Part shown: positions 1-15,162 of the stretch, piece after piece
Position numbering within the stretch: the first letter of the stretch is position 1
How the letters are laid out: every line of letters begins with the position of its first letter
Translations under genes and position numbers: made by a program
Origin: Gracilaria domingensis
Taxonomy: Eukaryota > Rhodophyta > Florideophyceae > Gracilariales > Gracilariaceae
Reading direction: 5' to 3'
Assembly: GCA_022539475.1 (NCBI GenBank)
Contig: VCMS01000018.1
Location: forward strand, 186,001-250,000
DNA: 64,000 nucleotides
The notes under the pieces: model-generated
Database searches by the model: none
What the model was told of the DNA's origin: nothing
The model's input: the letters and a program-made list of their open reading frames with translations, nothing else

Positions 1-640
1 TGCCATGGCACTTTCTTGACTTCTCCAGTGCAACACTATCCACATCTAGTGTACACTTCACGCCGGCCGCAAAGTATGGGCTCAAAAAAAAATTAGGAAT
101 GTTTTCAGTTTTTCACACTTTCTTCCCTCCTCGATGTACCCATATCATATCGTGAGGTACGTAAACCATCACGTGCATGGCGCCGATTCGACTCTCCCTA
201 AATTCTCCCCCACACGGTATGGCAACAATTTCTTCCAAGTTGCAACTACAAGTTGCAACACTGCACCTTAGACCTCCGCTCTTCACCTCCAACGTTCCAA
301 CCAACCGCCTCCTCCCCCCCTCCCCCCATCTCCCCGCCCTATTGCATCATATACATATGTTGCTTCTCCCGCTGCGCCTTTCACACAGACTCTATCGTCT
401 CCCTTGCGTAACATCAGAAACGATGCAGGCACCGGCATGACCCAAACCTTTTTCTCACTCCTGCTGCCCCCCCCGGTTCCCTCTTCCCCCCCGAACGAAA
501 CGTCGCCGACTCAGCAGTACCAAACCCCCTCTCTCTTCTCCCTCCAACCGCCCCTCCGATAATGTAGCACTCGCCACTGACGAACCGCATGAAGAACAGC
601 AGCTCTCTCTCTCCGTATGTTCTTCTGACGCAGCTCATCT
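1..640. other. non-coding or unrecognised flank, pyrimidine-rich
   Basis: No gene could be recognised here. The + strand is strongly pyrimidine-rich with C and T runs around 310-340 and 465-545. It may be the degraded 5' end of the transposase gene that becomes recognisable at about 0.7 kb, but nothing in it is diagnostic. Confidence 0.4.
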
Positions 641-699
641 AGCTACACCATAATCCCCATTCAATTCCCAGTCCCTGTCGGTAGGTTCCGGTCATGCCC

Positions 700-3600
700 T
701 CTCTCCGCCCGCTCCAACTGATGACTTTCACAATCTCGTCAAATACATTTCCTTCATCGCCACGAAACTTGGAAAGCGCTCCGCAGACGAGCTTTTCAAC
801 ATTCTCAGGCAGTCCAACTTCCCCCCCTCTCTTTTCCAACCTCCATCACCTCCGCTTCTGAGTGTCTCAAACTACACTCCAAAATCTTTGAAGATACCGT
901 GAGCTCCATCGGCTTCACCTCCACCACCATTCACGATAACGACCGTCAGTTCTCTGCCACCCTCTATGTCAAGGACCCCATTCAAGTCCTTCAACAACAA
1001 CTTCGGCTAGCATCCCATGAGGACTCCTTCTTTCACCAAATTCACCACGCCTCCCGCGCAGAAACCGACGCATTCGCGCATCCCATGGCCTCCAAACTCG
1101 GACATGACGTCGTTCTCGCTCTGAAAAAGCACATCGCACATTCTCTAAACCCAGGAATCATCTGGCATGATCCCACCATTACTGGTATAGACTAGGGGTT
1201 TATTCGGACGGATATTATCCATATAGGCTCTGAAGTACGATGCATAATAAACAACTAGAAACAAGAATGGCGTGTAGAAATTCCGGACATAATCGGATAT
1301 GAATTTGAGAAAAACTACAACAAACCAATATGGATCGTAAAGAATGATTTCTGCAGACTTTCAAGCAGTAACGGATGCCACGGTTTTGATATATGTGTTC
1401 TTCCAAAAACTAACAGTATTCGTTTTCGTTAAGTAACCAAATTTTTCTAAACGAGAAATTATATTCATTGCTAACCAAATAATTCCAAATAACTACACGT
1501 AGCTTTCAAAATTGAACTAAGCTATCTCAAAGAACTGTAATTCCTTTTCTGAGTCTTTATAAGTGTCAACTATATATTTATTGTGAAAACATTGAGTTCT
1601 TTTGTCAATAAGCCGTTCCTGGGGTATTGATTTCAGGTCTGAACATAAAACCTTTCGTTGCCTGCTGTGTTTATACAGTGTTCTAGCATATACTTACAAA
1701 GAAACTGCATATAAAAAGGCAACAAGAAGTTTTTCATCTTATCAGACTAAATGATTATGAACTTAAACGGAGTTCAAATCTTCAAAGCAGTTTTGCAAAT
1801 AGAAAACATCGGATACAATCCGTTTAGAAATTTTTACTATTTCGGATTATCCATAATCGCAGACGTATTGGTTTTTTCCGGAACCGATAAGATCATAAAT
1901 GTTTGGACTCGGTTGTTTTGCGAAAACAGTTTTTATAATGTGGGCGAAGACGGATAAATTAAAATGTAGTTTTCGATTTTCCAAATTCGTCCAGGGCAAT
2001 TTTGGATGGGTTTGCAACGGGTGCATTCAAACGGCTAGCCGTCCGGATAAATGCCTAGTATAGACTTCTTCATGGGCATGCTTCAACTCTACTCCGATAC
2101 GTCCTCCACCACGCTAAAACGCTCCTCTGTCACATCATACCCCCTCCATATTACGTTTCTCAACTTCAAGGACTCTTTCCGCAGAAAATGTATCACACAC
2201 CACCACAATCTTGTCGGCTACATTCCCACTTACTTTACATCCTTCTCCCCCGATTATTCCTCCACCGACACCGACTCTTTGGAAATTGGCCCCTTGTTGT
2301 CGAACATAACTCGCGTTGTGCGCATGGAGCTCGTCCAGAAGTCCTTGGAAACTATCCTCAAACCTCTGTACGACATATGCAAAAAAAGGCCTCCCCTTCA
2401 GAGACGCCAAGGAAGTCCTTCGTCAGTGCCATCCCATCATCGTTAACTATAGCGCTGACATTCCCGAAGCAAAGGACATTCTCGCTGTTCTCCACGGCAC
2501 GAAACCAAACAAGCCCTGTCATAGATGCCTTATCCCTCGTTCACAACTCAACGTCTATCAAGCCATTCTCAAGGAGCGAACTGTATCCCACACCTCTGCA
2601 ACGAGAAAGAACCACCAAGATCTACTTGCCGGCGCTGAACAGGCTCTGCTTTCCCGCAGACCTCGAGTGGCAAGGACCCTGAAAAATGAAGCTGTTCAAC
2701 TACTCCAAACCACCTCCTTATCCACTTACAAGTTCTTTCTCGAATCATTCTCTATGCTCAATGTCTCCGAACTGCTCAATACTTACTCAATCTTCTCCTT
2801 CGAGCCCCTTCATAACTTTCATCTCGGAATCTCCAAACTCATCAAACTCGCCTCGATCGAATGCCTCAAGTCCGATTCGCTTCACATTTCTGTTGGTTCT
2901 CAGCGAAACCTGAGGTCTTTCAAGACTGTTCGAACTTCTATTCTAAGCCACGCCAACGCCATTCTCGCCGACATTGAGCGCTTCTATCCGGCACCCGGAC
3001 TTCACATCGACTTCTCCACATCCGGAAAAGGAAAATCTCTCAACGGTTTCTTCACGACAGACGGCATCAGGGGTATGTTAGAAGCCAAGGACTACCGTTC
3101 CCTTGATATGGTCTTCCCTTTCATTAGCGCTTTCTTTGACCGCTGTTGTGGTGAGGAATCCTCCGCCCCTACTACCACCGTTTTCACATCCTACGTTGAC
3201 CTTGTCAACAACGTCCTTCGATACAATACCACTCCAGAATGGACGGAGCATCGCATAGATGCGTTGGAAACTATGATCAAGAACTTCAAGTTTTACACAG
3301 TCTCCATTCTCGGCCCGTACCAAGCCTCCAACTTTCGTACTCTTAAGCTCCACCTCCTTGATCACATCATTCCGGACATACAGCGATACGGAGGCCTGCA
3401 CCTCGGCGATGCAGGCGTGTACGAACATGCTCATCTTTTCTTCAAGAACCACTATCGTCGAACTTCTCGAAGGCGAACCACAGCTCATAAGGAAACGGTG
3501 AACGCCATTCAAGAGTCGCAGGACTATTTGCAATCCCTTTCGGTCAGAAGTCACTTCTCTGTCTCTTCGAACTCTCGCACCCCTTCCATCAACCGCTTTC

Positions 3601-4439
3601 CGGCCTTGGTTCGCGACGGTAACTCCTTCTCACTCTTTGACATCATCACAGCTGACAAGTACCTACGATCGCATCCACATGTATCTTCTTCGGCTCTGGC
3701 AGAACTTTTCTCGACAACCACACTGCAGTTCATCAACCAAATATCTCGCGAAGCTCTCACCTCTTTCCGCACCATTTGTGTAGAAACTATTCAACAGCTG
3801 AAGAACCCTCACTACATCAAACTCACTGTCGGTAATTCTGCATACGTTCTTAGCGGCTTCTGCCGCTCTCTCGATGATCACGATCGGGATCTTCGATGCA
3901 TAAGACTGAGAAGGCCCGATGTACAACTATGTGAACGCATTTTCGCTACGACCGCCTTCGGACCTTCCCAGTTGCCTACGTTCTCCACGGTTCTGGTGCA
4001 CGGAACACCCCCCTCCCCCCCCCACTGTACTTTTTCCACAGCCTGGGTATGCAAAGTATTTGCATTGCTTCGCGTCAGGGACAAGACCTTAGACAACTCT
4101 GAATCGGAGCTCGCTTTCGTTCGTTTCTTCGAAGTGATAGAGCCCTTGGATAACGTTGATGAAACTCTGAACTGTATATCACTCCGTTGGGCCACCGACG
4201 ACGAGCATGATCACACCGTGCATCCAAGTACGTCAAGGATGAAACCTCGTTCTGCTACGGTCTCTCCTTGGTTCGGGCTTATCCCGTTCTCTTCAATCAA
4301 AGGCTCCATACACGTCATTCGCCAAAACTACCCTGCCCGACCATTTTTCCCTCCCCTTCACTGGAAATTCCATCGTTTCTACATTAACAGATTCTATCGT
4401 AACCCTCGAGCCCATATTCATCATACTCGTTCTACGTAA
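700..4439 (+). pseudogene. CACTA/Plavaka-like (tnp2-type) transposase, interrupted by a hAT insertion
   Basis: Transposase of a large DNA transposon; it would act in the nucleus on the element's ends. The best open stretch is 2,316-4,439 (707 codons). Recognisable parts in order: a segment near 750-830 containing DELFNILRQSNFPPSLF, continuation at about 850-1,192, then after the insertion SDTSSTTLKRSSVTSYPLHI (about 2,093-2,150), the typical D..E.....C..CL block DIPEAKDILAVLH...KPCHRCLIPR (about 2,455-2,540), EPLHNFHLGISK (about 2,800), and a C-terminal YRRTSRRRT segment. These resemble the KDZ/Plavaka and CACTA tnp2 transposases of fungi and algae. Breaks: the 865-bp hAT insertion at 1,193, a frame change in the C-run near 820, and one in the seven-A run at 2,381-2,387. 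It is convergent with the minus-strand gene ending at 4,468. Family placement (Plavaka versus CACTA) rests on motif memory and needs a profile search. Confidence 0.7.
1193..2057. mobile_element. non-autonomous hAT-like transposon, 865 bp
   Basis: The terminal inverted repeats are TAGGGGTTTATTCGGACGG at 1,193-1,211 and CCGTCCGGATAAATGCCTA at 2,039-2,057; 16 of 19 positions match. They are flanked by an exact 8-bp target duplication, GTATAGAC, at 1,185-1,192 and 2,058-2,065. An 8-bp duplication and a TAGGG terminus are hallmarks of the hAT superfamily (Ac/Ds). The inside is AT-rich, has CGGA/TCCG subterminal motifs and no transposase frame, so it is a Ds-like passenger. It interrupts the transposase gene, and element plus duplication (873 bp) is a multiple of three. 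Confidence 0.88.
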
Positions 4440-4467
4440 CATTCTTAACATAAACTGTTCATGTACT

Positions 4468-5556
4468 TTAGATATTCTCCTCCTCGTCTTCCATCTCGTG
4501 CTCATCGTCCACGCCTCCCCCGTCTCGTTCCCTACCTTGTTCCCAGACATTCGGATTACAATCGATCACATTATTATCTCGGATTTCATCGATTGCTCTT
4601 ATAGGGGAGTATACGCGATTCCGTGGGTCACAATACCCAATATAGCAATCCAATACGGCTCCAAGATGTTCCGTAATCTCTTCCATGAATAAATCTTCTC
4701 GAACAGCTAGATATAGCTTCTTCTTAGACTGTATCCAGTATGCTACAGTTTCCACACGGTCATCATTTCCATGGGGTGGATCTTGAGCCATTGAGTCGTT
4801 CCTGAACTCCGTTCCAAACTTCTGCTCCATTTTCATTCGTACAGACTTCAGTATACTTTCCAACGCCTGTGCAACATACTTTCCGAGTAGGTTGGAGAAC
4901 AACACCTGCCTTTTTCTCCCCCGCTCTGCTTCAAACTCTGTAGCTCGAACAACTGACGCGATCCAAGCGTCTAGACGCGCCAACTGCACTATTGTGCCAT
5001 CCACTGGGTCTTTGTCTCCCGCATTTCTTGAATCCTTTTGGTTCACATCGTAACCCAGAAACTCCCGTAAGACCTGTAGGCCTAGAACGTTTCTAAACAG
5101 CAAGTCTTGCGGCTTGTTCTCTTCGCCACGCATTTTGAACCCGGAAAATGATATGTCCTCTCTTTTGCATGTTCTCCATGTGGAGAGAATCTCACACCCT
5201 TTTGCATCCAGCGGCAGAAGCTTCTCCCGTAGTTCCTCCGCTTGTTTTAGGTATATGCTCCTCTCCCTCTCATGAGATGGTGTCTTCACCAACATTTCAT
5301 ACCTTAGCCCCACCAACAACTTCTCCTTCGCATGGCGTTTTCGAACCCCCACCGCATCGCTCAAGGCCTGCTTCAACCTCTTCCGTAAGCACATGTCGCT
5401 GGTCAGCTGTCTGATGCAGTCGTATTCCATCTTCATCTCCTGGATGGATTCCCAACGAGGTTTCATTACCTCCATCTCCACGATTTGCATCAGCAAGTTA
5501 TGACCCGTACCAAGAATCGATGGAGTATACGCCCTCATCCCCATCGCGACCTCCAT
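4468..5556 (-). CDS. hypothetical protein of the large transposon
   Basis: Uninterrupted 362-codon frame starting at an ATG (5,556) and ending in TAA at 4,468, only 29 bp past the end of the convergent transposase frame. No family is recognised. The first two thirds are charged and helical, with Lys/Arg/Glu-rich stretches. The middle holds a hydrophobic segment LLFRNVLGLQVLREFLGYDV. The C-terminus is strongly acidic (DDEHEMEDEEEN). The position between the transposase and the coiled-coil gene suggests an accessory gene of the same element, possibly a DNA- or partner-binding factor; that is inference. The start is uncertain because the frame could have been joined to the gene upstream before decay. 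Confidence 0.5.
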   Translation of the reverse strand: MEVAMGMRAYTPSILGTGHNLLMQIVEMEVMKPRWESIQEMKMEYDCIRQLTSDMCLRKRLKQALSDAVGVRKRHAKEKLLVGLRYEMLVKTPSHERERSIYLKQAEELREKLLPLDAKGCEILSTWRTCKREDISFSGFKMRGEENKPQDLLFRNVLGLQVLREFLGYDVNQKDSRNAGDKDPVDGTIVQLARLDAWIASVVRATEFEAERGRKRQVLFSNLLGKYVAQALESILKSVRMKMEQKFGTEFRNDSMAQDPPHGNDDRVETVAYWIQSKKKLYLAVREDLFMEEITEHLGAVLDCYIGYCDPRNRVYSPIRAIDEIRDNNVIDCNPNVWEQGRERDGGGVDDEHEMEDEEENI

Positions 5557-5675
5557 CGGACAGCGTGGAAAAATTCTTTCCCATCAACGACCAGGACACT
5601 GTACTCAGTCTCAGGTCCGAGTGTCTCACTTCGATTCCCCCAGTTTCTCGCCGGTGAACTCATCTCGACGTACTA

Positions 5676-6770
5676 TTACCTTGTCTCGTGTTTCGCGTAT
5701 CGCAGTATGGACTTGTATACTGTCTTCGCTACCGCTACATACGCGTCGTTAACATCAATCTCGTATCTTTTCCTTCCCTTGTGCGAATCACGCTCCCTCC
5801 GTTTTTCCCCTCGCTTCAGTGCCTCTCGAAGTGATTGTATTAGAACATCTTGCTCCTTCACCTTTAGCTCTAGTTCTGTCACGTTTTTCTGTGCTATTCT
5901 TACGCTCATCTTCAGACTTTGATTATCCTCGGTTATTCGAAAGAGATCCGCTTTTAAGTCTCTAATCTTGTCCAACAGCTCGTAGTGTGGCGTTAGGCTT
6001 TCATCTTCTTCACCTTCTTCCTCTACAGCAGCAAGAGCACGAGATGGAAGCGTACGGTTAATTTTCCGGCGACCTGCCACATTTCGACCCCTTTCGTTCC
6101 ATGTCTCTCTTGGTATTTCTGACCCCACCTCTGTCCGTTCCCTACGCATCTCGCCAAAGGAGACCGAGGTCGAACCCTTCCTTCTCATTTGGTTGAAGCT
6201 ATTCTGCAATGGTACGACTGTACGAAGAGCAGGCTCTGTCTCGTCGACGTCTTCGTCCTTACGACGTAGAGGTTGAATGGAATCGTTTGTAGTGCGCCTC
6301 GTCCTACCAGGTGCGATTGCTCTTTCATGTCTGTCCAACTCTTCTTCGATGACATTGTTTCCCAAATTTCTTGTTCGTGTTCCTTTCGCTCTCGTACGTC
6401 TCTCGGCACCATTCTCTTTCACATTCGCATCATCGATTATTCTTGGCACTTCCTCTGCAGCCATGTGTCGTGTAACCCGCCCTCCCACTGAGCTGTGATG
6501 TGGTAACACTACTTCGCTCTCTGTCACTTCCGTTGAGGTCGTACTAACACCCACCTTCGGTTTCGGTTTTGCCTTCGAAGCCCGGAGTGCTGACTTCGAA
6601 CCAGACTTCTTCCCAGTAAGCCCGACAGGGGGAGCTCGTCGTCCAGTACTTCTTCGGGTCGCGGCAGGCGGAGGTTTCTTGCGCTTAGCGACGCCAATAC
6701 CATATCACGGGATTGTTTGGGATCCCTTCGTCTCCTGGTCGTCCGCGTTGCTGGACTTTTGTGGAGCCAT
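5676..6770 (-). pseudogene. hypothetical basic/coiled-coil protein with one in-frame TGA
   Basis: A frame of about 365 codons starts at the ATG at 6,768-6,770 (MAPQKSSNADDQET...) and ends in TAA at 5,676. It is broken only by TGA at 6,705-6,707, after codon 21. After the TGA comes a Lys/Pro/Arg-rich tail-like region (AKRKKPPPAATRRS) resembling disordered nuclear proteins. A long Arg/Glu-rich middle follows, then a probable coiled coil from about 6,000 to 5,800 (LLDKIRDLKADLFRITEDNQ and onward), ending in a basic segment. No family recognised. The coiled coil suggests oligomerisation or protein binding. A CGA-to-TGA change would explain the stop. It is on the same strand as its two neighbours and probably belongs to the same large element. 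Confidence 0.5.
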
Positions 6771-7317
6771 GATTGCGCTTCAGAATCGTGTGAAAAAGAA
6801 GGGATTATGTTCGGATTATGGAATGGGTAAACGGAAGCTTCTGGAGTTCTGCTCGTAATGTGGGGTGAAAAAGCGGAACGGGGGAAGCTTTTGAACCCTT
6901 TGCAGCAGGTGATGGAGACCTTCAGTGGTTCTTGAGCCCTGAGGGAGCTGGTCCATTCCTGTGGCAGACATTCATACCAATTTTCCACATTTCCCATGGC
7001 CGTATTTTTCATTGGCTATGTTCTATGTGCCAGGTCCGTCTGTTGGTCCCTTCATGATGAAGGTGCTCTGTTCCTTGATCCAACCTCCTGGGGGTGAGGT
7101 GTTAGTTCTGAGGTGTTACTTTTGAGGTAGTAGTTCTCATCGCTGTGGAGTATTCTTAGTAGCTCTTTGCTTAGCACGACAATGCGTCTTTGTGCCACGT
7201 TGTCGATTCCTGCAATAATAGGTTTACTGGAATGATGAATGCATTCAATAAATGGCGCAGTAGTTATAAAATACACTACAACAGTTTGTACTACTCAAAC
7301 TAGAAAGCTTGGGAGAG
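6771..7317. other. intergenic, likely promoter side of the coiled-coil gene
   Basis: About 550 bp without a gene that I can support. It lies upstream of the minus-strand ATG at 6,770 and downstream of the SET-domain coding region, so it should hold the promoter of the former and the 3' end of the latter. No distinct motif was recognised. Confidence 0.4.
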
Positions 7318-10300
7318 TTACAAATACCTCTCCCGTGGATAGCTGGGTCCATAGTCTACGTACAGTTCGTCGTGTTCATGAATATCCCTTGTAGCCGTCA
7401 CCAACAGTGGTCTATAGCTTGCGAGTGTACCCAATGTGGTAGCTTGATGCTCGGAGGGCTGTCGAATAATAACGTTTGGTAAGCGGTCTTGGTAAGGCTC
7501 CATCTCGGCCCGATCCTCTCTCTTCGTCCCCATCCCGGTACGAAGCATCATTGATGTAGCCCGCTATACAGAAAAGAGCGGGTACTACCCAGGCAATCGC
7601 ATTATTGATTTCGGAATCATAGTGAGGAAGCGTGCTGTACATCTGCCCTTTCAGCTTCACTTCCATGCAATACCTCCTGAAACGGGAAACGGTGGCACCG
7701 AGCACTCCGCTTCCGTATTTCATCTGTTTTGAAATTGCGTCGGCTTATGTCATGATATACCAATGTCCCATAGAAGTACCCAGCAACCTCTCCTTCCGAG
7801 AACGATCTACTACTGAACACTCCATCTCCACTTATGGGGTGTTTGATATTTGATTTATTCCTGTACAACCATAAACCTGCTGCTTCAGTGGGGAGCAAAC
7901 TCTCTACATCCATCGTCTCCAATGTGCCCTGGAGATTCAGAGGCCACTCGTGCACCGGTTTCTCCTTGTGTTGCGCAATGAGAGTTGGTTCTCTGCAAAA
8001 CGTTGCGATGTAAGGATTGATATGAAACGGGAAACATTGGTATGGCGGGAATCCTTTCGGTGCGGTCCATATACGCGAGGTTCTTTTCTTCCCTTCCGGG
8101 AACTTTGTCCGTACTAAATACGAGGCTTGAACGACCTCATTACTGACAGTTATTCTTGCGTTGAACTCGTTACCCCAAACCTTCCTCTCATACATCACTA
8201 CAGCATTGTGTTCGGCATGAGCGAAGCACTGCTCATCCCTCACATCCAATGAAGCGTCGGGGCTCTTCCATGCGCATGCACGACAAGGCACCGGAAAATG
8301 TTCCACTATAGAGATCAACCACAACGTCCTCGGGATTTGAAAACCTGACAATGAGTTCCTTTTAGCAGCGCCCTCGGTTTCTGTTCGAGGCGAACCTGAA
8401 CCGAGTGTATTTTGGAACGCTTCTTTTCCCTCCAACGGAGTCCTTCAGGTTCACCAACACCTTCTGCTCCTCGTACGCGTTTCCATTCCGAACTCCGTGC
8501 ACGTATACTCGGTTGCAGAGAACAACCGTGTTGTGTTCCTTCCGGGGTTCTTCAAAGTGTGCGTACGAGAGCGAATGAACTGCATCGGTATGGAGTCGAC
8601 TAAGAACGAAGCACTTTTCCTCCCGACTGCATTCTCCGATTTGTGCTCACGTAGAATCTCCTCCCAGTCCGCAAACTGTTCGATAGTACAGAACATTATA
8701 AAATGACCGCCAGGGCGAAGCATTGAGGCCATCATTTCTGCAGTATTAACCATAACTTCGTCGAGAAGCTCATCATGCTCACTGTCACGTATACCATAAG
8801 AGAGGTCTGTGAGTACGAGTTGAACATTGCCCTCTAGGGAATTATCGGAAGGCAACAGTGTACTATGAGCCTCCACTAACTCTTCATAACCAACTCAATG
8901 CATAGAGAACTGTTGCTCCATGTTCTTTTTGACCATTACGAGAGCCTTCGTCGTCCTTACATTGCCAAAGTCGTGAGGTGGAAGAACACCATCAGGAACA
9001 TTAGAAAGGGGATGCGCTCCACTGTCATCATCATCCGTGTCGTCTATGACAATGACATCCACCGGACCCGGGTCTGCACCGGATGTTTTACCAGATGTTT
9101 TACCCACCGCCCTAGCCATTGGCCTGGAGGAAATGGTTCTCTGTGCCGTAACCGTATCCTCAATCTTCACCATGACCGTGTTGCTTCCTTCCTGACGTCC
9201 TGACATAGTGGCGCGGGATGGCTGCTGGGAAGGTCTCAGGTTCAGCTGGACAATAGCGGTACGAAGAGTATCCAAATACTCATCGGAGAAAGCATCAAAA
9301 CGAGATGGAAAACGTGTCGGAAGTTTCCTTCGAAAGCTTTCCAGCAGTTGCCACTTGGTAGTAGCGGACATTTTGTAAAGAAATCCGTTTAAGACAACCT
9401 TGTTCAAATCGGACAGGAACTCTTTTGACAAATCCCTTAGTTTGGTATCGATATCATCCGAAAGGGTTTGAACCCAAGGCACAGTAGCGTTGACCTCTGT
9501 GGTTGGCTCCACTTCGATCCCCAATGTTTTAAACACCGATGTTGGGCTGTATCCGGAAGAACGGGACTCAATTGCGCTGAAAGAAAGAGTCGCTTTCTCC
9601 ATGGCAAGAAACGGTAACAGCATTTGTTCTGCGTCACGAAATCCAAGACAAGAAGCAAAGGAATCCCATCCTAGACATACCATTTGCACAGCATAACCCA
9701 TCCGCCTTATGTGCGCTTGGTTTGACATGACGAAACCATCCACAAACGGCACATGTCTCCGAGAGCCAGTTGTAGTCCTCGCCTTCTTCGCGACTGGGAG
9801 TCGCCTCTCCATAGTGATACGCTTCACTAGGGATAGATAGAGCAACTGCTGAAAACGAGTAGCAGGCTCAATCCGGAAGGTAGTTTTCTTCGTCTGCTTG
9901 GATCCGGGACCATGCTCTTTGAATAAGTCATTCCAGAACACACGCTCCATAAAAGAATTCGCGCCATCCACATTCTTATCCAAACTTCATTCGAAAAGAT
10001 CCCTCACCCGACGATCCTGACTCCAGACATCTACGTCAATGATACGGACATACTTGTAGACCCGACTTATGAACCTAACATCGGTACTTATCTTCACCAG
10101 CTCCCGCCGCGTATAGTTTGCGTACGTGCTCTTCGTAACATCCGTGAGCAATTTCCGTGCACAAGCCAGACTGGCACGGTTTGCGACAGAGTACTCAACC
10201 AGAGCCGTGTATCCAACTTGACGAGAGGAACCAATGCCGCCTCGAGACGCCGCAAACGAGTCTCTCAGCTGGAGAAGTATGCTGAACAAACGAAGGAACC

Positions 10301-10418
10301 ACGTCGCCATAATATCCTTCTCACCGGAGCTAGACTCCGTAGATGCCACGGAAGATGCGATAATCGACATCGCTCTGCTGTTAAGACCATAGGAGGGTTT
10401 GTTTTCGACCGGCGCCAT
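7318..10418 (-). pseudogene. DNA methyltransferase-like / SET-domain fusion protein of the large transposon, decayed
   Basis: A long minus-strand reading frame starts at the ATG at 10,418 (MAPVENKPSYG...). One frame runs to 7,617 and is broken only by TGA codons (9,987, 8,895, 8,451, 8,445, ending at TGA 7,617). The rest of the SET domain continues in other frames to 7,318, so at least two frameshifts are present. Parts: about 500 residues with no recognised fold; an acidic linker (IVIDDTDDDD) near 9,050; a methyltransferase-like domain at about 8,560-8,830 with NVQLVLTDLSYGI (a DPPY-type motif IV position) and MLRPGGHFIMF; then a SET domain at about 7,320-7,860, with SGDGVFSSRSFSEGE near 7,820 and RPLLVTATRDIHEHDELYVDYG near 7,350. 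SET domains methylate protein lysines; DPPY-type enzymes methylate amino groups of DNA bases. One protein carrying both would mark DNA and chromatin. The motif reads DLSY rather than DPPY, so activity is doubtful in this copy. Confidence 0.62.
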
Positions 10419-10651
10419 GTAACTCTCGCAAGAACTCGCGAAAGCGGAATAGACGTTGGCGATGAAACTCGCTGGAGGAGTTCTCGAAAGAGTAGTAGAC
10501 GGCGGTGATGAACCGTTATTATAAATTCGTATTTGAGCTGGTGTTAGTCGTACACAGGAGGGTGTGAACAGGGTTTTGAGAGCGAATGTACTACGCAGAC
10601 TTGTGTAGAATCACCTAGTAATAACCCCCCTGGTGGCCGGATGCGCCGTCT

Positions 10652-10754
10652 TTAGACCACGGTCTGGACCGCGGTAAGCCGAGTTCATAGCCGAGATCAT
10701 GGCCATGATCTCGGCTATGAACTCTGCTGACCGCGGTCCAGACCGCGGTCTGAA
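10652..10754. repeat. large palindrome with a perfect 44-bp core
   Basis: Positions 10,681-10,724 form a perfect palindrome centred on ATGG/CCAT. After a five-base mismatch on each side the arms continue with ACCGCGGTCCAGACC-type sequence, giving a hairpin of about 100 bp. It contains the GACCGCGGTC unit also found in the palindrome at 11,784-11,851. Confidence 0.85.
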
Positions 10755-11783
10755 CACGTTGGAAGCAGGTATCAGGCCACGTGTAGAGGGGGTTGTGGCG
10801 CGCATGGGGCAGATGAGATATGCTCTTATACCACTCAGAATCGCCGTCCTCCGCCACCGACCGGCCCCCCCACATCATTATGTGCATCATCATCATAGCC
10901 GCCATCATGGGGCTGCATACAAATCTCCTGTACACTCTCCGCCTCTATTCTCGCCGCTTGCGCTCCAACGCCGACGCACACCGAAAGAGCGGTTGCATTT
11001 CTCAGGCGCAAGACGTTCAGACGCCATTGTTATCGCAACCTTTGACCACCGCATCCGTCGCACTCAACAACAAGAGCGTCCGGAACAACATGCAGCTTAG
11101 GTCTTTCCACTCCCAGTACTGGTAATACCAATGTAGTAACGAGCATGACGTTTTACGGCGCTCACATTCCTTTTCGCCAGGCGTCCGCCGCTCCTTTCAT
11201 GTAATAAAGACGACCGTCGCAAGGCGCAAACACCCATAATAGCGCTGCTTTGACGACTGCAGCCGCCGTGGCCGCAGCTGCTGATCTCGGTATGCCTAAT
11301 GACTGCGCTACACACCCCCCGCCGGGCTGGATGTCTGTCTCAGGCGCTCAGTTTGATAGGAGCTAGCGCATATTGCGTGGATTGCACTTTCTGGCTCACA
11401 CCGTGTTGATGATGCAGCCCCAACACACTTCTTAGCACCCACACCAAGAGCAGAACACGTCAATGACACGATCTGTACAGTCGCCGCCCGCCACTGAACG
11501 TGAGGAGGGTCCTTCTGAGAGTGCTTTCACAACAAAAAGCCATGATCATAATACCCGTACAATTGCGATTGGTGCTGCCATCACTACTCTCATTCTCGAA
11601 TGGCTCTGCTCTTCGGCATTCAAACTCAACATCGAATAAACTAAATCCGCCGCGAAATTGTTTCTTGTCTCTGTGTAGATACGTATAAACTGCGATGTGA
11701 AACGACAAATGTGCTCTGGGTAGCTCTACTCAGCTCTACGTTGTACCCTACAACCGGCTTTTCCACCCTCCGTAGGGTGGCTG

Positions 11784-11851
11784 GGTGGCCGGATGCGACG
11801 TGTTCAGACCGCGGTCCAGACCGCGGTCTGAACACGTCGCATCTGGCCACC
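11784..11851. repeat. near-perfect 33-bp-arm palindrome
   Basis: The arms 11,784-11,816 and 11,819-11,851 are inverted copies with a single mismatch and a two-base centre. The arm holds GGTGGCCGGATGCGACGTG and two GACCGCGGTC units. The arm sequence recurs at 10,632-10,650, linking the two palindromes to one repeat family. Confidence 0.88.
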
Positions 11852-12169
11852 ACAGGAGGGTACCAGGGGGGAACCGTGAGGGTTGATCACGCTGTCTGGT
11901 ATGCACCTAAGCCTTCTACACCCTCTCTAACCGCCTGTACCACTCTTTCAAAGTGACGCGAATGTTCACGCGAGCATTTTCGTGAGCTGCACTACAAATC
12001 TGCGATACGAACGGGTGCGACACTTCAACCGACAGCGAAGCGTGTACCGTGTTCAAACCGAGCGGGTGCGCCGTTTGCTCACGTTATCAGAGAATTATAC
12101 GATTACTGCTTTGTTCTGTATTCAATCTTTATAGGTGTTTGACGAAGCTAAATTCAAACAGGTTATATA

Positions 12170-15162
12170 ATGGAGCCAAGAGGATTGGGTAACCGGCAGA
12201 TGTGGCGCTCCCGAAAGCCGCGGAAAGCTTGCAACCCCATGGGGCCGCACCTTTGAAGTGCGAAGAAGACAAAAGAAGAATGGAGGAAGAGTAATGAGGA
12301 AGCACAGAATCCGGAGACGAGTATGAGATCTAACCCGGGGAAAGCGAAACCAGCACCGGGGGACAAAGTGACGATTCTTATCGCGGGGAATGGAGGAGAC
12401 AAGGTCCCAATTGGCACCGCTGATGTGGTGGCCATCGAGTCTGCCGGCGACGGCAAAGACTATCGAAGAGAAATGCATGGTCACACACTGCAAGGGAAGC
12501 CAGGAGAGGATATAGTCGGTATATGGCGAGCTGATGTATCGAAGGAGCTCCATATACCGTACCCGTATCTCTTTAAGTGTACGGATGAAGACTCCATTCC
12601 GAAGACCGTTGTGGACTTACACAAGATGGGTTTCTATGCTTGGGACTTGAACTTCATGGCTTCGGGCGAGACCGTTCAGAACACCACGCCTCAGGTGCCC
12701 AGTAAGGAATCAGGGCATACCAATGCGGCGTCCACGACAGGAGGAAAACGAGTGCGTATGGCGGACACACCGAAACCCCCGCGTACACCGAGTGGGAAGC
12801 AGTTGCAACCTCAGGTAGCCCAGGCCAAAACACCAGACAAACAACAGAAAAACAAAGGGGGGAAGGAAGTACCGCCCCGAGCGCCTGGGCCTGTGCCTAA
12901 AACTTCATCTAAGCAAGACCAGGATGGTACAGAGGTAGGAACTGCACAATTTGACCACAACTCCAGAGAGTGCGGTCTCTGCATTACGGAAGCAACCAGC
13001 GATGAATGTGCAGTCTCGCTCGTCCAGAAATAGCACTGCTGAAGCGATTGCAATGGCTGGCAGTCGCAGTGGAGCTAGGATAGAAGTTTTGGATGTGGAT
13101 GAAGTGGATGGTGATGACGTTGTCTTGGTGAAGGAGAGCTTGGCTGGAAACTTCAATGAACTATTCGACGAAGGTGATGAATTACCTTCGGATGACGTGG
13201 ATATGAGTCTGGCGTCGCTCAAGTTCACCCTGGACCATTATGAGTACGAGTCCGTGAAGGTAGACATCGACCTAATCGAAATCCCGGACTCACCTGTTAG
13301 AGGGACAGTTCGGGAGCATGTTGAAGCTCTGAAGGCGGAGATTCGAAGGAAAGGGGTTCTTCAGGCCCTTGGAACGATGAGTGTTGTTATTTTGATCACG
13401 GGTAAGTCCGAGAAGGAGATGGTGGAGATCAATCGCGTGAAATTTACGTGTATCCTCATAGATGGGGCTCATCGTCTTGTGGCACTCAAGGAACTATGTG
13501 AGGAGGATGCAAAGATAAGGATGGAAACTGTGTAAAGGACTTACCGTTTCCTTATGGAGGAGGAAGGATGGACCAAAGATGAAAACGAGGGGGCTTCTGA
13601 GCCTAGGTAATGCTTTGAACGATGGACTGAGGCAGGTCCGACTTATGAACTTCGCCGACAAGGTTTATTCCATTGTACCCTTTACAACCGCGATGGTTGA
13701 AGAGGAGAAGAAACTGTTGAACAACATGAGAAGGATCGCTGTAGCGGGTGCCTTAAGCGTATGCGGAATCATAGGTCAGTATCAGATCAGGCATCTATCG
13801 AGGTTTGGGGAGATGGGTTTGAAGATGGCTAAGAGTCCTCGATTGCTGAAGCATTTGGAAAGTGTGTGTCGGGAGTATAATGAAATTTGTATTACATGTA
13901 TCTCCAGTGATGAGTTCTTTTCCATGGATGTGGACACAACTGATTTCACCCTGGACGCCCTGGCAGCATATTTTGCGAGGAGACGAGAGTCCAAACTGAA
14001 GGGCCGCTTTGAAGATATACGAAAGTATTTCTTTATATGCTGCCGGTCCCTAAATGAGCTGGCCGTTGAAGTATCGAAAAGAAAGAGACTGTCTCTGAAG
14101 GAAGTGTACGAGATGCAGATTGAAGTCATTAGGTTTGAGAAACTCAGCCTTCGTGAGTATCTTGCCACACAGGCCGCACGCCTGGAAACTGCAGCGACAA
14201 AGAAGCTTTTGGACGGAAAGATATCGAGAAGGGTGGCTTATGCTCGTGAAAAGCTGAAGAGGTCCGTCGGGGTGGATTTCAATTCGACTGTGGGGCCGTC
14301 TGCTACGGCGGGAAGGGGAAACGCGACCACGCCTAGGACCCAAGTAACTAAACCGGATACTCGGGCGTCGCGTTCTAAACTTGTTAAGGCAAAGAATGCC
14401 GGGGAAGACGTTCAGGAAGTGGTAAGCGACGTGGTTTTAGTGGAGCGAAGTGGTGCGGAGTTGAGATGGAGCACCGAAAGAAGTCGTCGACGAAGGAAGA
14501 TGAAGAGCAAAAACAACCCCAGGGCTCAGAAGAAGGCGAAAGTAAGCGAAGTGCCCCAAGATGAAACATTAGTCATCAATCATCTGCGTTAGCTCGGAGG
14601 GAAAGGGGTCAGAAGCTTCCTCAAAGCTCATCAAATCTGCTTCAGCAGCGACACGGACTCTGATTCAGCGCCGAATGGTGAGACGCGAGGAGACGACACG
14701 GATCCTTTCGACGACACAGTCCCGGAAATTCCACCCCCGAGGCTGAAGAAAGCAGACGAAGGACCTAACGAGGATGGGGATTCGTGGTTGAAATTGTTGA
14801 AAGCAGTTCCTACCAAGTGGCTTGCTGGAGTGGACGGGATTAAGTCGGTTTATCCGTGGATGGAAGCGATACATCTCCGGAAGGAGCACTGAGGCCATTT
14901 GCTCTAGCCGAAGGACTTTAAAGAAGTACATCATGCTGTGTTTCGGCATGCTGCGTATCAGGGTCAGAAGCTTCTCAACGAGGCGGTAGGAGAAGGGGAG
15001 GTTGATGATGGGACCCTATGGGCGGAGGCAGTGAAGAACGATTCCGTCGCGTATATGTATTTTTTGAAAAAGAAGGCTGAGTGGCCCAAACTGGTACAGG
15101 CTCATCTGCAACGCTCAATATTGTACTTCCTGATTCTTCACAGGAGGAAGAAAGTGTTTTAA
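12170..15162 (+). pseudogene. ParB-like domain protein of the large transposon, decayed
   Basis: Coding signal runs on + from the ATG at 12,170 (MEPRGLGNRQ...), through an in-frame TGA at 12,254-12,256, to TAG at 13,031-13,033. It continues in shifted frames at 12,951-13,535 and 13,579-14,592, and again at 14,594-15,162. The recognisable part is at about 13,290-13,520: VREHVEALKAEIRRKGVLQA and later CILIDGAHRLVALKEL. This matches the layout of a ParB/sulfiredoxin-fold domain with its G.HR.A motif. In phages and some eukaryotic elements such domains sit beside DNA methyltransferases. Before it comes an acidic, low-complexity linker; after it about 330 residues of helical sequence with a basic C-terminus (RRRRKMKSKNNPRAQKK). 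It is divergent from the methyltransferase/SET gene, so the two probably served one element. At least three frame changes plus TGA and TAG stops show it is dead. Confidence 0.55.

Follow-up and report, generated by a model that had tools for sequence, protein, structure and literature searches.

A Plavaka-type DNA transposon family of Gracilaria domingensis with a methyltransferase-SET gene and a divergent ParB-like gene as cargo

We analysed a 64,000-nucleotide stretch of DNA from the red alga Gracilaria domingensis (hereafter the window; contig VCMS01000018.1, positions 186,001 to 250,000), which is part of contig C18 of a 77.9-Mb assembly. The window contains a decayed, right-truncated copy of a large, high-copy Plavaka-type DNA transposon. 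Comparison with sibling copies leaves us highly confident that a single Plavaka-type family carries two divergent cargo genes across a shared spacer, one predicted to encode an N6/N4 DNA methyltransferase fused to a SET domain and the other a ParB-like domain together with a probable dioxygenase. Of the several roles that this cargo might play, relief of the element from host silencing appears the most likely, and we propose it tentatively; for the structure and this mechanism taken as one statement, the chances appear about even. The original prediction, made from the window alone, that one giant transposon brings its own methyltransferase/SET and ParB-like cargo is supported: ends with target duplications enclose the transposase and the cargo.

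Termini, gene order and subfamilies

To locate the termini of subfamily B, we compared it with subfamily A, which includes the window copy, and used an inverted match in the copy on contig C12. Genome searches with each end gave 40 matches (the best 40 of 100 candidates for the left end and the best 40 of 41 for the right). Among these best-scored matches, 37 of 40 left-end matches started at query bases 5-9, and 33 of 40 right-end matches stopped at 164-167. Twelve left-right pairs lay within 40 kb, 11 of them 13-23 kb apart and the one on C61 38.5 kb apart. A perfect 15-bp inverted repeat, CGTCTGTGTTTCCGG, was common to all 11 end pairs read (ten and that of C12), and six of these were flanked by a 2-bp target duplication (C25, aa; C96, ta; C277, tt; C266, ta; C120, cg; C202, at). 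By hand calculation, six or more matching 2-bp flanks among 11 pairs would be expected by chance with a probability of about 2e-5, at 1/16 per pair. Matches to the transposase, the methyltransferase-SET gene and the ParB gene were enclosed by 6 of the 12 end pairs (gene rows selected from the searches). Among the duplication-bearing pairs, C96 and C277 enclosed all three genes, C266 the transposase and the methyltransferase-SET gene, C25 the transposase and the ParB gene, and C202 and C120 the transposase only. The last two intervals (C202:60634-74250 and C120:105751-118981) were shorter, with inverted ends, target duplication, transposase and a palindrome described below, and had no cargo-gene match in the rows used.

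The transposase gene of the window copy is broken and spans 349..4424 on the plus strand (tblastn with the subfamily B transposase), in pieces at 349-495, 483-839, 833-1192, 2054-2413 and 2385-4424. It passed the Pfam Plavaka model PF18759 (E 7.7e-7; 29.1 bits against a cut-off of 26.3), confirming the tnp2/Plavaka-like transposase of the original prediction, and the counterparts in subfamilies B and C scored 85.3 and 66.6 bits (6.1e-24 for the C12 copy). The 2-bp duplications of the six end pairs agree with the 2- or 3-bp target duplications of Plavaka elements. Of the Plavaka motifs C(2)C and H(3-4)H, the transposase showed one CxxC (CHRC at residue 470) and several H..H spacings, none of which we assigned. 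Membership in KDZ was provisionally set aside: PF18758 had no match in the genome, though the control genomes were equally silent. The comparison with KDZ elements made in the original prediction is less apt than one with Plavaka, which Kojima places with EnSpm-like elements (Kojima 2025, PMC12730594). The end pairs start at CGTCTG, and inverted ends starting at TGT were rejected. With termini CGTCTG..CAGACG, the ends are neither TGT..ACA (PlavakaA) nor CATCA..TGATG (PlavakaB), so the element would be classified as Plavaka by its transposase and, by its ends, in neither of these two lineages.

Genome searches with the window proteins gave at least 150 methyltransferase, at least 69 transposase and at least 118 ParB-gene matches (scored candidates: 150 of 390, 63 of 1335 and 114 of 466, respectively), and other copies with the same gene order and shared terminal repeats, which the original prediction had proposed to look for, were found. 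We analysed the neighbours of 81 methyltransferase, 63 transposase and 116 ParB-gene rows from these searches by script. The results showed that 71 of the 81 methyltransferase matches had a transposase (31) and/or a ParB gene (54) on the expected side and strand, with both in 14; ten had neither neighbour, and none had a neighbour on the wrong side or strand. Midpoint distances were 4.9-8.3 kb between methyltransferase and transposase (mostly near 5.5) and 1.6-6.7 kb between methyltransferase and ParB gene (mostly near 4.7 kb).

Three subfamilies were distinguished. Transposase loci of subfamily A were 91.7-95.0% mutually identical (7 loci, 21 pairs), and those of subfamily B 97.8-99.9% (21 loci, 210 pairs), which suggests that subfamily B moved recently. 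The commonest change among the 21 subfamily B loci was C>T, with no strong dinucleotide preference. A third group, subfamily C, consists of methyltransferase matches of about 41% identity, many of equal score. In the one copy inspected, within the 2.2 kb looked at, a 732-amino-acid open frame occupied the place and strand predicted from A and B; it was 48% identical to the subfamily B transposase and matched the Pfam Plavaka model at 3e-18 (66.6 bits). The linkage of methyltransferase and transposase thus recurs in three subfamilies (one copy in the case of C), down to 48% transposase identity.

Three observations count against the one-element structure. A matching target duplication was absent from five of the 11 end pairs (C12, C233, C140, C293 and C469); a methyltransferase neighbour was present in 31 of the 63 transposase matches and absent from the expected place in 32; and in the subfamily C copy the consecutive methyltransferase (2e-15) and SET (1.5e-8) matches lay in two different frames. 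C12 and C233 have an identical right flank, which belongs to a further, diverged gene for a dioxygenase of this type (L065:823-1392), indicating that some end pairs are rearranged; this flank points to insertion or recombination between related elements. Three of the 32 transposases without methyltransferase (C25, C120 and C202) lay between inverted ends flanked by target duplications, which shows that deletion derivatives or methyltransferase-less variants exist; for others, the neighbour may have been lost at a contig end or have fallen outside the scored matches. On whether the transposase occurs apart from its neighbours, a question posed by the original prediction, these 32 matches tell in part against that prediction. 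An alternative, that separate repeats came together by chance in a region rich in them, could draw on the nesting of related elements in each other and on the five end pairs lacking duplications. We reject this explanation as exceedingly improbable, because in 71 of 81 cases the genes keep their order, spacing and strand, with no reversal, and because the genes of C277 and C96 sit between inverted ends flanked by target duplications.

The two cargo genes and the spacer palindrome

The first cargo gene is predicted to encode a bacterial-type N6/N4 DNA methyltransferase fused to a SET domain. In subfamily B it is a single open frame of 1118 amino acids (C12), of which 1051 residues (L030) matched the Pfam models N6_N4_Mtase (1.3e-14) and SET (2.3e-6, whole model, 1-105 of 105). 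The N6_N4_Mtase match (PF01555) reached 1.3e-14 in subfamily B and 2e-15 in subfamily C, and the SET match (PF00856) 28.4 and 35.5 bits, respectively, with a cut-off of 22.4. The protein also matched PHROG 67 (DNA methyltransferase) at 1.5e-25. One part of its alignment profile reached DpnA, CcrM, RsrI and MboIIA (1e-14 to 1e-4), and the other reached KMT5A and EZH2 weakly (about 0.001). Outside the genome, four related proteins were found among 7991 scored candidates; the methyltransferase exceeded its cut-off in all four and SET in three, with P0001 below it at 20.5. DPPY and a later D..G-T motif (D-x-x-x-G-T) were invariant in the five aligned sequences, an order that we take to mark the beta class of N6/N4 methyltransferases (DPPY/F ahead of D-x-x-x-G-T). 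Phage DNA methyltransferase records were 23-27% identical to the element methyltransferase (25 of 146 listed), and the methyltransferase-SET profile had no match in viral contigs at the sensitivity used.

In the window this gene is broken and lies on the minus strand at 7327..10419 (tblastn; upper limit approximate), with the methyltransferase domain at approximately 8190..8830 and the SET domain at approximately 7348..7829 (both minus strand, hand-mapped from L030 residues 524-755 and 883-1042). The subfamily B protein aligned to it by tblastn over residues 36-1049 of 1051 in five pieces, across in-frame stops at 8895-8897 and 9987-9989 and at least four frame changes. The catalytic motif reads DLSY instead of DPPY; DPPY or DPPF is held by frames of 15 loci among the 30 longest methyltransferase frames listed. 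A DPPY methyltransferase followed by SET, as originally predicted, is thus borne out by the Pfam matches of the siblings and not by the broken, DLSY-bearing gene of the window itself.

The second cargo gene forms one 1327-amino-acid open frame in C61, with ParB-like and dioxygenase-like regions. At least 42 genome matches to this protein were obtained, several of them full-length (35 of 1016 candidates scored), including one on C231 that is 62% identical and groups with subfamily A by place. Outside the genome, P0005 has the same layout (26% identity over 95%), and a profile search for more ParB-dioxygenase proteins gave none beyond it. The window gene is truncated and lies on the plus strand at 12164..15081, where tblastn with the 1327-amino-acid sibling aligned residues 43-1002 in three pieces; the dioxygenase-like domain of the siblings is missing from the window copy. 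The ParB-like domain (13191..13532, plus strand) matched PHROG 3264 (ParB-like) at 3.6e-6. Profile-profile comparison by hhalign with six phage ParB-like proteins gave a probability of 91.9, compared with at most 2.7 for 12 column shuffles and at most 0.6 for nine other slices. By eye, DGxHR is common to this domain and ParB proteins. The ParB-like assignment is supported by these PHROG and profile-profile results.

The terminal domain is probably an Fe(II)/2-oxoglutarate dioxygenase, judging from motifs alone: CKRQxLHTDF and PPxSxFxGRGDxxHAGAS were invariant in three relatives. It reads HxD and lacks the HxE hallmark of PE-type TET enzymes (PMC12730594), an identity that was rejected. For both regions Pfam and NCBIfam were uninformative. 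PDB sequence searches with the ParB-like part returned chance matches only, among them SbnI at E 0.95, and a phage ParB gave a non-significant tblastn match (E 4). SbnI is a ParB/sulfiredoxin-fold protein, and we counted its match as chance. The ParB-dioxygenase protein had no match in viral contigs, phages or plasmids at the sensitivity used, and derivation of the complete fusions from a virus or phage was rejected for lack of matches at that sensitivity.

Several results weigh against these domain readings. SET domains typically contain an NH pair, which reads ND in the aligned sequences. Pfam ParB_N (PF02195) had no genome match at E<=1, with 11 of 14 control genomes matched, and PHROG supported ParB in one of three slices, with none for the subfamily B slice or the P0005 slice. 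The putative 2-oxoglutarate-binding arginine is common to two relatives and is leucine in L064. The terminal domain had no Pfam match and only chance-level PDB sequence matches, and Tet_JBP (PF12851) had no match in the genome, although the control was weak, with one of 14 control genomes matched and none above the cut-off. The activities of the cargo (DNA methylation, oxidation and ParB binding) are themselves read from homology and motifs. Of the profile searches suggested originally, those for the transposase and, in siblings, for the N6_N4 methyltransferase and SET succeeded, and those for ParB_N and KDZ found nothing; the ParB-like protein consequently stands on PHROG and profile-profile comparison, without ParB_N.

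Selection on these genes was assessed from the ratio of nonsynonymous to synonymous divergence (dN/dS). Between subfamilies A and B, the methyltransferase-SET gene gave dN/dS of 0.093 and 0.095, with saturated dS of 2.7 and 2.4; the transposase gave 0.094 and the ParB gene 0.21. Third codon positions were the most diverged in all four A-B comparisons made. On these values, cargo and transposase seem to have been maintained together. For hyp1, one of two further genes described below, no dS was obtained, and for the other, hyp2, dS was saturated. Within subfamily A, five methyltransferase-SET pairs gave dN/dS of 0.57-0.90, as expected of dead copies. Against joint maintenance stand the dS estimates, obtained in two of four methyltransferase-SET comparisons and in neither of the other two, near saturation between A and B, and based on the decayed window copy for the transposase, ParB and hyp comparisons. 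If the genes were ordinary passengers, captured and carried without a role in transposition, the 32 of 63 transposases lacking a methyltransferase neighbour, and C202 and C120, which lack either cargo gene in the rows used, would be readily accommodated. The A-B dN/dS of about 0.09-0.21 with third positions most diverged, and the linkage of transposase and methyltransferase across three subfamilies down to 48% transposase identity, speak against this, and we regard it as very unlikely.

The spacer from which the two cargo genes diverge hardly aligns between subfamilies A and B, except at a palindrome. In the window it lies at 10677..10728, with the core GAGTTCATAGCCGAGATCAT and its inverse, and is a candidate ParB site; GACCGCGGTC occurs at 10729 and 10741. 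A second palindrome, without the 20-base core, lies at 11792..11843, with GACCGCGGTC at 11807 and 11819. Both subfamilies keep GAGTTCATAGCCGAGATCAT facing its inverse, with ACCGCGGT adjoining. The 20-base half-site has 182 exact copies in the genome, and a reversed-pattern control had 0. Among 100 half-sites listed, 87 were no more than 4.5 kb from a match to the methyltransferase-SET or ParB gene, a zone amounting to no more than about 1.2% of the genome, and none lay inside such a match. Of the remaining 13, eight were unassigned and five fell within the intervals of C120 and C202, for which the rows used contained neither cargo gene. The palindrome thus appears to be largely element-specific and resembles a cis-acting site. 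Two points tell against a binding site. All four occurrences of GACCGCGGTC in the window are in the spacer (0.03 expected), but it was found in just 2 of 94 loci and is replaced by GAACCGCGGTTC in the subfamily B copy, so only the palindrome core is common to A and B; moreover, the palindrome could instead have originated in a fold-back insertion passed down within the family.

Retention of the palindrome in the C120 and C202 intervals, where neither cargo gene was matched, and conservation of the cargo about as strong as that of the transposase, would also suit a role in self-recognition, in which copies of the element would be tagged by a DNA mark and by ParB binding, steering transposition away from them (target immunity) or to particular chromatin. 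The C12 and C233 copies have their right ends inside a related gene for a dioxygenase, evidence that relatives do serve as insertion targets or recombination partners, and we consider this role quite improbable.

State of the window copy and accompanying features

The five gene regions of the original prediction are present at about their claimed coordinates and strands (window frames, Pfam and tblastn), but 700-15162 does not delimit the element. The left terminus (CGTCTGTGTT...) of the window copy was computed at C18:184285, about window position -1715 and outside the window. It is shared with subfamily B, and the 5' part of the element occupies 1..348 (plus strand) of the window. On the right, the copy is truncated at about 15081, inside the ParB gene. 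The 5' part upstream of the transposase (L061:1700-3000) contains repeated short blocks of TACCTCTCCATGTCTTCCAG type, as read by eye.

Besides carrying frame changes, the window transposase is interrupted at 1193..2057 by a nested insertion of 865 bp (no strand assigned; read by eye); the sibling loci are continuous at this point. The insertion has TAGGGGTTTATTCGGACGG-type inverted ends and is flanked by an 8-bp duplication, GTATAGAC, at 1185-1192 and 2058-2065; from these ends and this duplication we take it to be hAT-like. Between the transposase and the methyltransferase-SET gene lie two genes on the minus strand with no function assigned: hyp1 (4471..5583; subfamily B counterpart L062:6326-7393, 64.5% identity), which had no Pfam match, and hyp2 (5679..6704; subfamily B counterpart L062:7348-9015, 50% identity), for which Pfam gave weak below-cut-off matches and nothing above. 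The C-terminal region of hyp2 looks coiled-coil-like by eye.

Two further frames occur right of the ParB-dioxygenase gene in the C61 and C12 copies, at L064:4412-5134 (minus) and L064:6195-6998 (plus), and neither gave anything above the Pfam cut-off. By eye, the product of the first is hydrophobic, probably a multi-pass membrane protein, and that of the second is charged and helical-looking. The left flank of the C12 copy (L062:364-897, minus) resembles, also by eye, a Harbinger/PIF transposase fragment.

Possible role of the cargo and relation to known elements

DNA transposons with a TET/JBP or SET gene are already known (PMC12730594). The element resembles the TET+ Plavaka elements of Agaricus bisporus and Gymnopus confluens in its Plavaka transposase, 2-bp (or 3-bp) target duplications and dioxygenase cargo (Kojima 2025, PMC12730594). 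It differs from them in its termini (CGTCTG..CAGACG here, TGT..ACA or CATCA..TGATG there), in HxD instead of the HxE of their PE-type dioxygenases, and in the N6/N4 methyltransferase-SET fusion and ParB-like domain; "ParB" and "adenine" occur 0 times in the main text of that article. The HarbingerS and MuDR transposons of Phytophthora (cited in PMC12730594) likewise carry a SET lysine methyltransferase gene, but they belong to other superfamilies, and the SET domain described here forms part of a fusion with a DNA methyltransferase. The giant repeats of Amoebidium (PMC11244446) are also very large, reaching 50 kb, and contain a Plavaka transposase; their cargo, unlike that described here, consists of repetitive genes, many of them tyrosine recombinases, and "ParB" and "SET domain" occur 0 times in the text consulted. 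In the consulted parts of a 2026 review of fungal 5-methylcytosine and N6-methyladenine (6mA; PMC13297926), the 6mA writers named are MT-A70 enzymes and a PF02384 enzyme, a single 6mA writer of bacterial type is named, and Plavaka and ParB occur 0 times. Phage ParB-like proteins (PHROG 3264) and phage DNA methyltransferases (PHROG 67) were the nearest non-eukaryotic relatives seen of the two domains. No report of a Plavaka element combining methyltransferase-SET and ParB-dioxygenase genes, and no paper naming both ParB and Plavaka, was found in the literature searched; Kojima's supplements could list the combination.

Bdelloid rotifer N4CMT (PMC8885841) similarly joins a eukaryotic N6_N4_MTase domain to a chromatin-acting domain; there it is a chromodomain, a histone reader, with a link to transposon silencing, and here SET, a predicted writer, encoded by the transposon. 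As a bacterial amino-methyltransferase wired to silencing chromatin in a eukaryote, N4CMT offers a precedent for self-restraint, in which the methyltransferase-SET protein would put repressive marks on the element's own copies and limit their number, and the ParB-dioxygenase would reset them in a short window of activity. The divergent placement of writer and putative eraser genes across a single spacer would suit such an arrangement. Many subfamily B copies at 97.8-99.9% identity are unlike the outcome of tight restraint, and we judge this role unlikely.

We favour anti-silencing because escape from methylation silencing has been proposed for other transposon-borne dioxygenases (PMC12730594). 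The ParB-like domain would bind element DNA, most likely at the spacer palindromes, from which it may spread as ParB clamps do, and would thereby bring the dioxygenase onto the element. The dioxygenase would then oxidise the host's silencing methylation there, and the methyltransferase-SET protein would write the element's own marks, 6mA or N4-methylcytosine (4mC) on DNA and lysine methylation on histones. Acting together, writer and eraser might keep the transposase gene expressed or set its level of expression. A more elaborate and somewhat unlikely form is a ParABS-like, self-targeting epigenome editor: a clamp would load at the centromere-like palindrome, spread and carry the dioxygenase along, the methyltransferase-SET protein would couple DNA N-methylation to histone methylation, and the element would write and erase its own chromatin state independently of the host.

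The linkage of a DNA-methylation writer fused to SET with a ParB-dioxygenase fusion and a shared palindrome makes the escape from, or exploitation of, host silencing by mobile elements testable. The family also supplies candidate enzymes for 6mA or 4mC, and it may show a ParB-like domain put to use in a eukaryote. These findings suggest a jumping gene that may be able to rewrite the chemical marks used by cells to silence it.

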